The notes under the pieces are model-generated. The model was not told the DNA's origin. It worked only from the letters and a program-made list of their open reading frames with translations, and did not search any database. A DNA stretch of 64,000 bases from Aidingimonas halophila (GTDB taxonomy: Bacteria > Pseudomonadota > Gammaproteobacteria > Pseudomonadales > Halomonadaceae). The stretch spans positions 186,001 to 250,000 of the forward strand of contig NZ_FNNI01000007.1 of NCBI RefSeq assembly GCF_900106955.1, given 5' to 3'. The position numbers and the translations under genes are program-made. Below are positions 227 through 6,333 of the stretch, one piece after another (within the stretch, counting starts at the first letter, position 1; the number at the start of each line of letters is the position of its first letter).

Positions 227-1582
227 CTAGCGGCTATGGTCGGGGGGATCGTCATCAGCTTGTTGATCCAGACTTTTCCGCCATTCCATGATCTGCTTGA
301 AGCGTGATTCCTGGCCGTGGTCGCTGGCGGCATAGAAGTGGGTTCTCGGCAGGTCGTCGGGCCAGCAATCATGGAGGCGTCCTGCCGGGTAGCCATTGGG
401 TTCATTATGTGCATAGCGATAGCCTTCGCCGTGTCCCAGTTCGGCCATCAGTTGGGTCGGCGCATTGCGCAGATAGGTCGGGACTTCAAGGTTGGGGTGC
501 TCGGCGACGAATGCCTTGGCCGCATTCCAGGCCTGATCGATGGCGTTGCTTTTCGGGGCAACGGCCAGGTGAATGGCCGCATGGGCGATGGCTCGCTGCC
601 CCTCGTAGTCCCCCAGACGCAGATAGGCATCCCAGGCAGCCATGACCAGCGGTAAGGCGCGTGGGTCGGCGTTGCCGACATCCTCCGAGGCGATCGCCGA
701 CAGGCGACGTATGACATCCAGGGGATCACCGCCGCCTTGAATGAACTGGGCGATATAGAGTAGCGCCGCGTCCTGTCGTGACGAACGCACCGATTTGTGG
801 ATCGCTGACAGCAGGTCATAGTAGTGGTCGCCCTGCTTGTCGAAGGCGCTGGCACGATGACCGATCACATCTTCAATGGCTGCAGCCGTCAACCGCTCCT
901 CACCGGACGCATTGGTGGTCGTAAAGTCACATGCCGTTTCCAGCAGCCCTAGTGCTCGTCGTGCATCGCCATCGGCAGCGCGTGCCAGTTTTGCCAGCAC
1001 GTCCTCGTCAGCGAGAATTCGGCGTTGACCGAGACCGCGTTCATCGTCTTCCAACGCCTGGCGCATGACGGTGATCAACTCTGTCTCATCAAGTGCCTTC
1101 AGTACGTAGACGCGGGCACGGGATAACAGCGCTGAGTTCACTTCGAATGAGGGGTTCTCGGTCGTGGCACCGATGAGGGTCAGCAGCCCGGATTCCACAT
1201 GCGGTAACAGAGCGTCCTGCTGGCTCTTGTTGAGGCGATGAATTTCATCGAGAAAGAGCAGTGTGCTGCGTCCCTGCGACTGCGAGAGTCGCGCTCGTTC
1301 CACGGCGGCACGGATATCCTTGACCCCGGCCATGACCGCCGAAAGGTGTTCCAGCTCGGCACCGGACTCGTTGGCGAGAATCTCGGCCAGTGTGGTCTTG
1401 CCGACCCCTGGCGGCCCCCATAGTATCATCGAGCGTACGGCTGCTGTTTCCGCCATGCGCCGCAACGGCTTGTCCGGCCCGACCAGGGCTTGTTGACCGA
1501 TATAATCAGCCAGGCGCCTGGGTCGCATGCGGTAAGCCAGGGGGGCGCTTTCATGCGATTGTTGTTGGCTGAATAGATCCAT
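227..1582 (-). CDS. rarA: RarA (MgsA) replication-associated AAA+ ATPase
   Basis: RarA acts at stalled replication forks and gaps and is related to clamp-loader subunits. The 451-residue length is normal. Visible motifs are the Walker [10 protein letters not shown] at residues 56-64, the Walker B LFLDEIH near 109-115, the sensor [12 protein letters not shown], and the arginine-rich [11 protein letters not shown]. The C-terminal half has the family's DPLDVIRRL and [13 protein letters not shown] motifs, which belong to the tetramerisation and DNA-binding region. The start MDLF is the family start; the AGGAT sequence upstream is weak and distant. Its 3' end nearly abuts lolA. There is no serS beside it, unlike in E. 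coli. Confidence 0.96.
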
Positions 1583-1751
1583 AACGTATTGAAATCCTAT
1601 AAGAAAAGGGAATGATGAGACGACAGCGTCTTTAGGGTCTATTCTTACGGTTCAACCAACCATCCTGACCCCATGGCCGTTGAACCCAGGCCCCGGTGGC
1701 GAATCCAATGACATACTGACATTCGCCTTCGACTGCAGAGGAGGCTCTGTG

Positions 1752-2312
1752 ATGCCGATGTTGACCCAACTGCGTCTGGATCATGCCAACATGGCGCGTC
1801 TGTTGCACGTGCTGCAACTCAAGCACAAGACACTGGCCGCTGGTGAACGTCCGGACTTTCAACTGGTTCGTGAAGTCGTCGATTACATTCTCGATTACAT
1901 GGATGATTTTACCGTACCTCTGGAACGTATTTGCAGCGAGCAATTATCGGCCAGAGTGCCTCAGAGCATGGACTTGAGTCGTCAACTGGCCGAAGACTAC
2001 AAGGCACTGCACGAGCGTCTGATGCGTCTCTCCCAGGATATTGACATGATCCTGATGGATGCGGTGATCCCCATGGATCGGTTTGCCGATGATCTCAAAG
2101 CCTATCTCGAAGCGCATCGCGCTTACCTCCGTGACGAGAGAGAGTCATTGTTCCCGTTGATTCAGGAGTACTTTGACGATGATGATCTACAGCGACTCGC
2201 CGATGCCATGCCGGAAGGGGCGGCCGAGAAGCTGGAACAATTACAAGACGCCTACCCTCAACTCTACGCTGAATTGAGTGCGGCGCCAGAGCCTGCCACC
2301 ACCACTCCCTGA
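1752..2312 (+). CDS. Hemerythrin HHE-domain protein
   Basis: A 186-residue, all-helical soluble protein of the hemerythrin/HHE cation-binding kind, which usually holds a di-iron centre and is linked to oxygen or NO sensing, or to iron storage. The start is placed at ATG 1752, preceded by an AGAGGAGG ribosome site; the frame is open further upstream but without such a site. Candidate metal ligands are the LRLDHANMARLLHVL helix at the N-terminus (H-N-x-x-R-x-x-x-x-x), a second helix with DYILDYMDDF, and AHRAYLRDERESLFP, where the E-x-x-L-F-P motif is a common hemerythrin end motif. The usual HxxxE in the second helix is not obvious (the alignment gives Y-M-D-D-F), so iron binding may be altered. 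It is monocistronic between rarA and umuC. Specific role unknown. Confidence 0.78.
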   Translation: MPMLTQLRLDHANMARLLHVLQLKHKTLAAGERPDFQLVREVVDYILDYMDDFTVPLERICSEQLSARVPQSMDLSRQLAEDYKALHERLMRLSQDIDMILMDAVIPMDRFADDLKAYLEAHRAYLRDERESLFPLIQEYFDDDDLQRLADAMPEGAAEKLEQLQDAYPQLYAELSAAPEPATTTP

Positions 2313-2320
2313 AGAGTCGG

Positions 2321-3586
2321 CTAACGGCTACTGACCCGTGGAAGTTCATCCCAGCGAGTCGTATAGCGGGGCGATCGTCGGCGACTCTGCATCCGCCAGC
2401 GGGCATCGGCCGCTTGGATACCCAATGTCAGTGCGTCATGACCGAAGCGCTGGCGGATGCCGTCCCATACGTTCATCAGCCGCTCCTGTTGCGGCGAGTC
2501 CTGTCTGGCAAACAGGGGACGTTGTTGGAAATGGCGTGATGAGAGGTCGGTGAGCATGATGCCCACTTTCTGGTATGCATGACCTTCCCGCCACACATGA
2601 GCCAGCAATTGTTGGGCTTGTTGGTTGATATGACGCGTGTCGGCACTGGGACAGGGCAGGGCAGCCCATAAGCTGCTGCGATGTTGCGGTGTAGTCTGGA
2701 ATGGGTTGGTACGCAGGAAAACGCCGACGGCGCCGGCCTGCATTCCATCACGGCGCAATTTTTCTCCGGCTTGCTGGCAGTGGTGGCGTAGCGCGGCGGC
2801 AAGGTCGCGGGGATCCGTCAATGACCGTCCGAACGAACGTGAGCAGAGGATATGGCGACGCGGCGTCTCGAGTTCGTGGGGGGACAGGCAGGGGGCGCCG
2901 CTCAGTTCCCGGGCAATACGCGCTACCACGACACTGAAACGTTGTTTCAACCAGGGCTGCGGCGCATCCCTCAGGGTGTCGGCCGTCAGAATGTTCTGCC
3001 CGGTCAGCGCGGCCTGTAGTCGATTGCCTATGCCCCAGATGGCACTCAAGGGCAATGAACTCAACCAGGTGGTCAGGGTTGGATCGTCAGGGTGCGTCCA
3101 GACGCATACCTGCGGTGTTTGCGGTTGTCGTTTGGCTCGCTGATTGGCGAGTTTGGCCAGTGTGCGTGTGGGGGCAATACCGACTGAGACCGGTAGTCCG
3201 ACCTCACGGTCGACGGCCCGCACGAGGGAGTTGCCCAGTGATTCGAGTTCATCGACAGCCAATCCGCTCAGGTCGAGAAAACACTCATCGATGGAGTAAG
3301 GGTCGAGGGCTGGAACCCGGGCACCAAGCACTTGCTGGACACGGGAAGAAAGGTCGCCGTACAGCGCGTAATTCGAGGAGCACAAGTGCAGATGACGCCG
3401 CTGACTCGGAGCGATTTTGTGCGTGGGAATCCCCATGGGAACGCCCAGGTTCTTACACTCCTGGGAGCGGGCAATGACGCAGCCGTCGTTGTTGGATAAC
3501 ACGGCTACGGCCCGGCCGGCGAGATCCGGGCGGAAAAGCCGCTCGCAGGCGACATAGAAGTTGTTGCAGTCGACGAGAGCGAACAT
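2321..3586 (-). CDS. umuC: UmuC, catalytic subunit of DNA polymerase V (Y family)
   Basis: Error-prone translesion polymerase subunit that works with UmuD'2 and RecA after DNA damage. The 421-residue length matches the E. coli protein (422). Catalytic acids are visible at D6 (FALVDCNNFYV) and D100-E101 (SIDECFLDLSG); the finger segment NNDGCVIARS and the little-finger and C-terminal tail SPRYTTRWDELPRV are conserved. The equivalent of the clamp-binding QLNLFD motif is the weaker QRPLFA. ATG 3586 is chosen because the longer frame adds 23 residues foreign to the family and would run into umuD. umuD ends 17 bp upstream, so the two genes form one operon. Confidence 0.96.
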   Translation of the reverse strand: MFALVDCNNFYVACERLFRPDLAGRAVAVLSNNDGCVIARSQECKNLGVPMGIPTHKIAPSQRRHLHLCSSNYALYGDLSSRVQQVLGARVPALDPYSIDECFLDLSGLAVDELESLGNSLVRAVDREVGLPVSVGIAPTRTLAKLANQRAKRQPQTPQVCVWTHPDDPTLTTWLSSLPLSAIWGIGNRLQAALTGQNILTADTLRDAPQPWLKQRFSVVVARIARELSGAPCLSPHELETPRRHILCSRSFGRSLTDPRDLAAALRHHCQQAGEKLRRDGMQAGAVGVFLRTNPFQTTPQHRSSLWAALPCPSADTRHINQQAQQLLAHVWREGHAYQKVGIMLTDLSSRHFQQRPLFARQDSPQQERLMNVWDGIRQRFGHDALTLGIQAADARWRMQSRRRSPRYTTRWDELPRVSSR

Positions 3587-3603: not shown

Positions 3604-4038
3604 TCAGGAGGGGCGGTGGCGGCACGCATGGATGATATGACTGACGACTCCCCACAGACGAACGTCGTTTTCATCGTCGAGTGGCAGGCGCGCCCGACCG
3701 GGATCCGCCGGACAAAGCCAGATGCGTCGGCCATTGCCATCCAGCCGCTGCAGACAGAGTTCGCCATCCAGCGCCGCGATTACCCAGTCTCCCCGCTGTG
3801 CCGTCAATGAGCGATCCACGATCAGCAGATCGTGTTGGTGAAAACCATCGCGTGACTGGGATTCATCGGCGACACGCATGAAAAAGGTCGCGGACGGATG
3901 CGGTACCAGATGTCGGTGCAGGTCCAGGGGCGCTTCCCGGTAGTCGTCCGCCGGCGAAGGGAAGCCGCTGGCACTGCGTGTCCAAGGGGACGGTGAGGTC
4001 CGGTTCATAGCAGGGAGCGACAGAGGGTCGACACGCAT
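3604..4038 (-). CDS. umuD: UmuD-like S24-family subunit of polymerase V; Lys97 replaced by Gln
   Basis: UmuD is a LexA-like protein that RecA stimulates to cut itself between residues 24 and 25; the product UmuD' activates UmuC. Starting at ATG 4038 (AGGAC ribosome site), the 144-residue protein numbers exactly like E. coli UmuD: a Ser24-Gly25 junction (Cys-Gly in E. coli) in SASGFPSPADDY, and the nucleophile Ser60 in ADESQ, where GDSM is usual. The general-base lysine, position 97 in E. coli, is Gln here (DGELCLQRL, codon CAG; AAG would be Lys). The rest, including HPSATFF, DLLIVD and VIAALDGE, is well conserved. The upstream frame (57 residues) crosses the LexA box and is not coding. Identity is secure; whether it still cleaves is doubtful. 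Confidence 0.93.
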   Translation of the reverse strand: MRVDPLSLPAMNRTSPSPWTRSASGFPSPADDYREAPLDLHRHLVPHPSATFFMRVADESQSRDGFHQHDLLIVDRSLTAQRGDWVIAALDGELCLQRLDGNGRRIWLCPADPGRARLPLDDENDVRLWGVVSHIIHACRHRPS

Positions 4039-4064
4039 GATGGACTGTCCTGATGATGAATTTA

Positions 4065-4084
4065 TACTGTAAAAATAAACAGTA
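4065..4084 (-). promoter_or_regulatory. LexA operator (SOS box) of umuDC
   Basis: The core CTGT-N8-ACAG lies at 4067-4082 with an A/T spacer (AAAAATAA), flanked by TA on both sides. This is a near-consensus SOS box, 27 bp upstream of the umuD start. The family consensus is TACTGTATATATAAACAGTA, and only the spacer differs. It predicts tight LexA repression and damage induction of umuDC. The murI gene starts about 120 bp away on the other strand and may feel the same operator only weakly. Confidence 0.95.
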
Positions 4085-4207
4085 TATGGGGAGATTGCAA
4101 CAGCGCGTGTTGTCTGCGGATGCAACGTCGCATGATCCCGGGGGCTGGGGTAGAATGCGCGCAGTGCTCTTGGTGCGCTATCGGAATACGTTCGGGGAGA
4201 TGTCGCC

Positions 4208-5026
4208 ATGAACGACGGGCCGATCCTGGTGTTCGATTCGGGGGTAGGCGGATTATCCGTGGTTGCAACGTTGCGTCAGCAACTCCCCGATGCGGCGCTG
4301 GCCTATACTTGCGACAATGCGATGTTGCCCTATGGGACGAAGGCCGACGATTGGCTGGTCGAGCGCATCGTTGCCGTCTGTGACGCGGCGGTCGAGGCCA
4401 GTCGGGCCAGTGTACTGGTGATTGCCTGTAATACCGCCAGTACATTGGCACTGGAGGCGTTGCGAGCCCATCTGGCGATCCCCGTGGTCGGCACGGTGCC
4501 GGCCATCAAACCGGCTGCCCGGCTGTCGCAGAGCGGGCATATCGCCCTGTTGGCCACGTCGGCAACCGTCAATCGACCTTATACGCGACACCTGATCGAG
4601 ACGTTTGCAGCGCACTGTCGAGTGCAGCGAGTCGCTGCCGATCCTCTGGTCGCACAGGCCGAGCGCCTGCTGGCGGGCCGAGCAATGGACGAAGCGATTG
4701 TATCGGCCAGCCTCGAACCGCTATGGCTGGACTCTCGACTGGATACCATCGTGCTGGGCTGCACGCATTTTCCACTGCTGCGCGAGCATCTGAGTGGGTT
4801 GTCTCCCTGGCTGATTCATTGGGTGGATTCCGGCGAGGCCATCGCCCGTCGTACGGCTCAGGTATCCACTTCACCGGCGGTGGCGAACGGACCGGGACGA
4901 TCCTGGACCACTGCCATGACGCCTGAAGTCACTCGGGCCTTGCATCGGTTCGGCTTCGCCGCCCCCTCATTGCTCACCATCACTGACCCCATACCCCCAT
5001 TGTCGTCATCCATGCTTCCCTCATGA
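4208..5026 (+). CDS. murI: Glutamate racemase MurI
   Basis: A cofactor-independent cytoplasmic enzyme that makes D-glutamate for peptidoglycan. Its 272 residues carry the two catalytic cysteines, C74 in VIACNTAST and C185 in VLGCTHFPLL, along with the N-terminal DSGVGGLSV loop (D10, S11) and LPYGTK. Start ATG 4208 follows GGGGAGATGTCGCC, a good ribosome site. A TAGAAT at 4151-4156 could be the -10 of its promoter, but the -35 is poor. The stop overlaps the trmA start (ATGA), implying translational coupling of the two. Confidence 0.97.
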   Translation: MNDGPILVFDSGVGGLSVVATLRQQLPDAALAYTCDNAMLPYGTKADDWLVERIVAVCDAAVEASRASVLVIACNTASTLALEALRAHLAIPVVGTVPAIKPAARLSQSGHIALLATSATVNRPYTRHLIETFAAHCRVQRVAADPLVAQAERLLAGRAMDEAIVSASLEPLWLDSRLDTIVLGCTHFPLLREHLSGLSPWLIHWVDSGEAIARRTAQVSTSPAVANGPGRSWTTAMTPEVTRALHRFGFAAPSLLTITDPIPPLSSSMLPS

Positions 5027-6156
5027 CTCCTGGAGATTCATTGTCCGTGGCTGTACCTGTCGTCGACCCTGACCGCTATGATGAACAACTCGATGATAAG
5101 CGAGTGCATTTGACCGAGCAGTTTGCGCGCTTTTCACCGCCTCCGCTTGAAGTCTACCCGTCTCCGGCCAGCCACTACCGTCAACGTTGCGAATTTCGGG
5201 TATGGCATGAAGGAGAGGATCTGTTCTACGCGATGTTCGAGAACGACCGGGAGATTCCCGGCAAGAAGCGTGTGATTCGTCTCGATACATACCCGGTCGC
5301 CAGTCGTCAGATCAATGACTTGATGCCACGACTGCTGGAGGCTGTCCGCGATAATACCGTGCTGCGCCGGAAGCTGTTTCAGGCCGAGTTTCTGACCACG
5401 CTTTCCGGCGACGCCTTGATCACTCTCATTTATCACCGCCAGTTGGACGATGAATGGGAGGTTGAAGCCCGCAAGCTGCAGACCCGTCTGGGGGCGATGA
5501 TCATCGGCCGGGCCCGTAAGCAGCGTCGGGTACTGGAGCGGGACCATGTGTGGGAACGGCTGAGGGTCGATGGCCGTGAATTCCACTATCAACAAGTCGA
5601 AAACAGCTTTACTCAGCCTAATGCCGCCATCTGTCAATCCATGCTTTCCTGGGCACGGGATGTCACTCAAGGGAGTGAAGCCCGCGATTTGGTGGAATTC
5701 TACTGTGGTAACGGCAACTTCACGGTCGCGCTGGCTGAAAATTTTCGCCGGGTACTGGCCACGGAAATTTCTCGGACTTCGGTGGCGTCTGCCAAGATCA
5801 ACCTGGCGGCCAATGGTATCGACAATGCGTATGTCGCCAGGATGTCTGCCGAAGAATTCGCAGCGGCACTCCGTGGGGATAAAGGGGGGCGTCGAGTGGC
5901 CGAAATGGCGCTTGACGACTACGATTTCTGTACTGTGCTGGTTGATCCGCCGCGTGCCGGGTTGGATAAAGCAAGTTGCGATCAGTTGCGAGGTTATGAC
6001 CGGATCGTCTACATCTCATGCAACCCCGAGACATTAGCGGAAAACCTGGCGCATCTGGGGCGTACTCATGCAGTGACGCGTTTTGCCTTGTTCGATCAGT
6101 TTCCCTGGACACCTCACTGCGAATGCGGTGTCGTCCTGGATAAACGTCGCCCTTAG
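5023..6156 (+). CDS. trmA: tRNA (uracil-54-C5)-methyltransferase TrmA
   Basis: It makes ribothymidine at position 54 in the T-loop of tRNA using S-adenosylmethionine, and also modifies tmRNA. The 377-residue protein has the SAM site EFYCGNGNF (about 225-233), the substrate motif TQPN near 197-200, the DPPRAGLD loop (308-315), the nucleophile C333 in YISCNPETL, and the general base in HCECGVVL (E367). It starts 4 bp inside the end of murI (ATGA overlap). The N-terminus is about ten residues longer than E. coli TrmA. Confidence 0.97.
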   Translation: MTPGDSLSVAVPVVDPDRYDEQLDDKRVHLTEQFARFSPPPLEVYPSPASHYRQRCEFRVWHEGEDLFYAMFENDREIPGKKRVIRLDTYPVASRQINDLMPRLLEAVRDNTVLRRKLFQAEFLTTLSGDALITLIYHRQLDDEWEVEARKLQTRLGAMIIGRARKQRRVLERDHVWERLRVDGREFHYQQVENSFTQPNAAICQSMLSWARDVTQGSEARDLVEFYCGNGNFTVALAENFRRVLATEISRTSVASAKINLAANGIDNAYVARMSAEEFAAALRGDKGGRRVAEMALDDYDFCTVLVDPPRAGLDKASCDQLRGYDRIVYISCNPETLAENLAHLGRTHAVTRFALFDQFPWTPHCECGVVLDKRRP

Positions 6157-6333
6157 CGAGCTATGGTCGTCAAGAGGCAATGCACAACTGACATGCTCCA
6201 TGAAAAAAGGTCAATAGAGTAGGGACTGGCACGCGTCTGACGTAAGCTTGATCTCATCGGAACCGGTGCAGGGTATGCCGGATTGCCATTCGAGGACCGC
6301 ACGCAGGGCGGTCGGATCAAACCGAGGTGATTG

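Follow-up and report, generated by a model that had tools for sequence, protein, structure and literature searches.

A halomonad UmuD lineage without the Ser-Lys dyad or the usual cleavage site, and its possible role as an uncut UmuD′-like subunit

The umuDC locus of Aidingimonas halophila

The stretch of the Aidingimonas halophila genome analyzed here (the window, 64 kb in full) carries a umuDC operon with a LexA box and conserved neighbors on both sides. The features used below are as follows.

227..1582, minus strand: rarA, a conserved synteny marker
1680..2312, plus strand: a gene that we take to be hemerythrin-like, a conserved synteny marker downstream of umuC
2321..3586, minus strand: umuC, 421 aa, catalytic motifs and DUF4113 tail intact (Pfam, motif reading)
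3604..4038, minus strand: umuD-like gene, 144 aa, S24 fold without the Ser-Lys dyad (translation, Pfam, structure matches)
3748..3750, minus strand: codon 97, CAG, Gln replacing the catalytic Lys (Q/R/L/Y within the clade described below)
3859..3861, minus strand: codon 60, TCC, Ser (D/T/A/G/H in most relatives)
3967..4038, minus strand: N-terminal arm, codons 1 to 24, without a PLF-type motif and, with R-S-A-S-G at the site, without an Ala/Cys-Gly scissile pair
4064..4085, no strand assigned: LexA box ATACTGTAAAAATAAACAGTAT, palindromic core
4208..5026, plus strand: murI, divergent neighbor and conserved synteny marker
5023..6156, plus strand: trmA, a conserved synteny marker

Translation and alignment showed that the window UmuD can be numbered residue for residue as E. 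coli UmuD, as the original prediction had proposed from the ATG at 4038, and confirmed the combination of Ser60 with Gln97 (CAG) read from 3604 to 4038 on the minus strand. S24 was the only Pfam domain in the protein (Peptidase_S24, PF00717; 59.6 bits against a cut-off of 23.3), the arm comprising just 24 aa, and the best PDB matches were E. coli UmuD/UmuD′, both by sequence and by fold. A check for a stand-in lysine found none in the whole 144-aa protein, which rules out compensation for Lys97 by a lysine elsewhere, and its loss stands.

The umuC gene begins 17 bases beyond the end of umuD and encodes the Pfam domains IMS, IMS_C, and DUF4113. The box at 4064 to 4085 is perfect and is the sole CTGT-N8-ACAG within the 64-kb window. 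Both observations agree with the earlier view that umuC and the LexA box are intact and that the operon looks used.

A clade that lacks both the dyad and the scissile pair

The lineage of the window UmuD was found in 26 of the 275 Halomonadaceae genomes searched (one per species), representing six genera. Named members in a second genome collection belonged to Aidingimonas, Litchfieldella, Franzmannia with Halomonas salipaludis, Modicisalibacter, and Chromohalobacter. Phylogenetic analysis placed these UmuDs in a single clade, with support of 100/98 in a first tree that included the active-site columns and the same result (100/99) in a tree rebuilt after removal of the arm and active-site columns; the UmuCs formed a matching clade (SH-aLRT 100). 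The order of genes at the locus, trmA-murI / umuD-umuC / hemerythrin-like / rarA, was also conserved. Both flanks were present at most of 20 named loci and one flank at the others, the whole arrangement was carried by genome G023, and it was not found at any other umuD locus tested. Given this monophyly and conserved locus, the operon looks vertically inherited rather than mobile.

Lys97 was missing from all 26 clade UmuDs, with Q, R, L, or Y at that position, so the question of whether Gln97 is lineage-wide is answered at the level of the lost lysine. Ser60 was missing from 24 of the 26 (D, T, A, G, or H) and occurred only in the window UmuD and in a sequence shared with Halomonas sp. ML-15. 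The sister species and nearest named relative, Aidingimonas lacisalsi, has Thr60 in a UmuD of 76% identity. Ser60 had been read as the nucleophile; it is present in the window but is not a feature of the lineage, and is an isolated survivor.

The cleavage site was compared across 201 distinct UmuDs drawn from genomes and from viral contigs. Automatic alignment misplaces the A-S-G of the clade against A24, so sites were counted on the sequences without gaps. In all 172 UmuDs with both Ser60 and Lys97, the cleavage position carried an Ala/Cys-Gly pair, either directly before GFPSP (147 of 172) or three residues upstream, as R-A-G-x-S-G (25 of 172), where cleavage of that bond is an assumption. 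The pair was found in none of the 29 UmuDs without Ser60 or Lys97, including 0 of 26 in the clade. A Fisher test of this association takes no account of shared descent, and its p-value carries no weight. The residue at P3 was Gly or Ser in every clade UmuD, versus V/I/L at 143 of 147 canonical sites. An arm motif of the PLF type was recognized in 1 of 26 clade UmuDs versus 139 of 172 canonical ones. The original prediction had placed the cleavage site at Ser24-Gly25; the position holds, while the usual Ala/Cys-Gly pair is not there. That reading overlooked the loss of Ser60 and of the cleavage site, which define a clade.

Some canonical halomonad UmuDs (at L026, L035, L145, L163, and similar loci) read R-A-G-[LIFV]-S-G-F-P-S-P, with the A-G pair, a candidate bond, three residues further upstream than that of E. 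coli.

Besides the 26 clade members, the 29 dyad-deficient UmuDs comprised two from another Halomonadaceae genus (g3) and one from Oceanospirillum beijerinckii. The g3 UmuD-like genes (L175:5750-6187 and L174, near 6044-6214) encode Ala60, Arg97, and S-G at the cleavage site, and the L174 copy has a stop codon close to the gene end; umuC was not found near either. The O. beijerinckii UmuD (L107:2926-3348) has Ala60 and S-G at the cleavage site and retains Lys97; its gene is preceded by a LexA-like box and followed by umuC. In the rebuilt tree, the g3 and O. beijerinckii UmuDs branched separately, and neither fell within the clade. This separation of three groups suggests that joint loss of the dyad and the scissile pair arose, as it appears, at least three times. 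A degenerate DNA pattern for SGFPSPA gave matches near chance level across the class and was set aside.

Conservation of the operon

Of 32 positions conserved in at least 85% of canonical UmuDs, 27 were kept in the clade. The five lost positions were Ser60, Met61, Lys97, Ile66, and Asn111; the count for position 24 in this tally is an alignment slip. Pairwise dN/dS within the clade (Nei-Gojobori) was 0.05 to 0.32 for the UmuD body and 0.06 to 0.14 for UmuC, while that of the UmuD arm, which has few sites, varied by pair from 0 to >1. The catalytic motifs of UmuC were intact in all clade members read. The C-terminal tail of UmuC has been described as the UmuD′-binding site in E. coli (PMC6511836), and it is retained in the window UmuC as DUF4113 (Pfam). 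Judged by these measures, the UmuD body, UmuC, and the UmuD′-binding tail are under purifying selection in the clade.

The arm before GFPSP was 12 to 27 residues long in 24 clade members, as measured from predicted start codons, with shortening to 12 residues in Litchfieldella anticariensis. AF2 confidence in the arm was low for both the window UmuD and a canonical UmuD, and the models do not show an undocked arm. Strict conservation within the clade was seen in GFPSPA after the cleavage position and in RxAS before it. This might reflect another use or processing of the segment and counts against reading the protein as an uncut UmuD′ mimic.

A LexA box was present in all 24 clade members examined, starting 38 to 57 bases ahead of the umuD start codon. 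Its spacer (TTATTTTT or close) is almost identical between genera, and this near identity seems to exceed what LexA binding alone would need.

Pol V and an uncut UmuD

Cleavage of UmuD to UmuD′ is the textbook posttranslational brake on mutagenic Pol V. In the clade, the switch appears to have been dismantled at both ends, through loss of the Ser-Lys dyad on one side and, on the other, of the Ala/Cys-Gly bond and the hydrophobic residue at P3. The arm of the uncut protein would no longer dock on the globular domain, and the undocked dimer would serve UmuC without proteolysis, acting as UmuD′ does. LexA repression, protein turnover, and RecA, and not UmuD cleavage, would govern Pol V activity. 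Loss of the arm motif along with the enzyme, while UmuC is maintained, favors this reading of an uncut, UmuD′-like subunit in a LexA-controlled Pol V without a cleavage switch, for which we estimate a probability of roughly 0.63.

The components of this reading differ in strength. The lineage's UmuD is almost certainly not self-cut; the earlier expectation that self-cleavage is blocked is supported by a true and lineage-wide loss of Lys97. From its sequence, we infer that the clade UmuD is a poor substrate in trans as well and stays uncut in the cell. The uncut protein is probably active with UmuC. For the lineage as a whole, we lean toward a dead, uncut, and constitutively UmuD′-like UmuD that has lost enzyme and site jointly, as may have happened in at least two other lineages.

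Laboratory variants of E. coli UmuD are informative about what an uncut protein can do. In the K97A variant, cleavage is blocked, UmuC is kept at the membrane, and Pol V mutagenesis is strongly inhibited (PMC4552617). Since K97A alone gives an inactive, membrane-held Pol V, abolishing cleavage is not sufficient to produce a UmuD′ mimic. UmuD-3A, which is uncut and has a loosened arm, is regarded as mimicking UmuD′, and a truncated form, UmuD 18, is also uncut and supports low yet detectable mutagenesis (PMC5342242).

It is conceivable, though unlikely, that uncut UmuD restrains UmuC or acts in a checkpoint or antimutagenic role, with no mutagenic Pol V being formed. Such a role would fit the membrane-held UmuC and inhibited mutagenesis of K97A (PMC4552617), and most clade members keep a full-length arm. 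However, the PLF-type motif is gone from that arm in 25 of 26 members, the L. anticariensis arm is down to 12 residues, and UmuC keeps its catalytic residues at low dN/dS.

Cleavage in trans, by LexA, by a 168-aa stand-alone S24 protein, or by a second canonical UmuD where present, is improbable. An active partner can cut E. coli UmuD S60A in trans (PMC5342242), canonical umuDC also occurs in some clade genomes, and the motifs of LexA and the stand-alone S24 protein are intact in the A. halophila genome. Nevertheless, 26 of 26 members have lost the A/C-G pair and the hydrophobic residue at P3, and the loss of these features and of the arm motif speaks against cutting by a partner as well as against self-cutting. 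The candidate proteases fit poorly too: a search of this genome gave no second UmuD, and the stand-alone S24 protein is present in 181 of 275 Halomonadaceae genomes, mostly without a clade UmuD, with none found in G186, a genome that bears one.

Self-cutting by Ser60 with a base other than lysine, or production of UmuD′ by another protease such as Clp or Lon, is very improbable. Ser60 in the window species and one relative, and Thr60 in several others, would be compatible with a different base, but the canonical bond is lost in these proteins. With no lysine anywhere in the window UmuD, and with residue 60 changed to D, A, G, or H in much of the clade, a substitute base is very unlikely for the lineage. 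The original prediction had left three options for UmuD, namely that it acts uncut, is cut in trans, or uses another base; the first is favored by the sequences, which disfavor the other two.

In one genome, loss of active-site residues would resemble early decay, but the idea of an operon decaying toward a pseudogene is hardly credible and largely refuted by conservation, as the open frame, LexA box, and locus are retained across six genera, dN/dS is well under 1, and the same state recurs in many separate assemblies.

An uncut, UmuD′-like clade UmuD would differ in several respects from the systems known to us. It shares with E. coli UmuD its length, numbering, S24 fold, GFPSPA segment, umuC operon, and LexA control but lacks, as a lineage, the Ser-Lys dyad, the Ala/Cys-Gly pair, and the PLF-type arm motif. 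The laboratory variants K97A, S60A, UmuD-3A, and UmuD 18 are likewise uncut, and a loosened arm confers whole or partial UmuD′ mimicry on the last two (PMC5342242); these proteins were engineered, whereas the clade lost enzyme, site, and arm motif in nature, a loss maintained across genera. HumD of phage P1 is a natural counterpart of UmuD′ and functions without being cleaved (PMC7092418). HumD is already short, while the clade UmuD retains an arm of 12 to 27 residues before GFPSP and a dead active site. Acinetobacter UmuDAb is also a UmuD relative with an altered role, described as a repressor that requires its N-terminal domain (PMC4807011); the window UmuD has only a short arm and no N-terminal DNA-binding domain, and its genome has LexA. 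No description of a natural dyad-less UmuD was found in the open-access literature, and an earlier description elsewhere is possible. For Chromohalobacter, the same literature yielded no paper on UmuD, and the Halomonas matches did not appear relevant.

If the uncut reading is correct, a clade without the protease and its target bond, yet with the operon kept, would indicate that the cleavage brake is dispensable, and related species with cut and uncut systems could be compared to test what the brake is for. Absence of the dyad together with the scissile pair also offers a simple rule for recognizing dead UmuDs in genomes.

An S24/UmuD search of the A. halophila genome, which the original prediction had proposed as a check for a second umuD, found none. 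The other S24 matches were LexA, the 168-aa stand-alone S24 protein, a phage-type repressor, and two more. The stand-alone protein (L010:4193-4699; G000 contig C10) has GDSM and VTLKK intact and no helix-turn-helix, and it looks like the C-terminal domain of LexA on its own. Its co-occurrence with the clade UmuD was considered and rejected, as the protein occurs across the family. No second UmuD match was obtained in 12 of the 26 clade genomes (E ≤ 1e-15). Several other clade genomes also carry canonical umuDC in addition to the clade operon, so heterodimers would be possible in those genomes.
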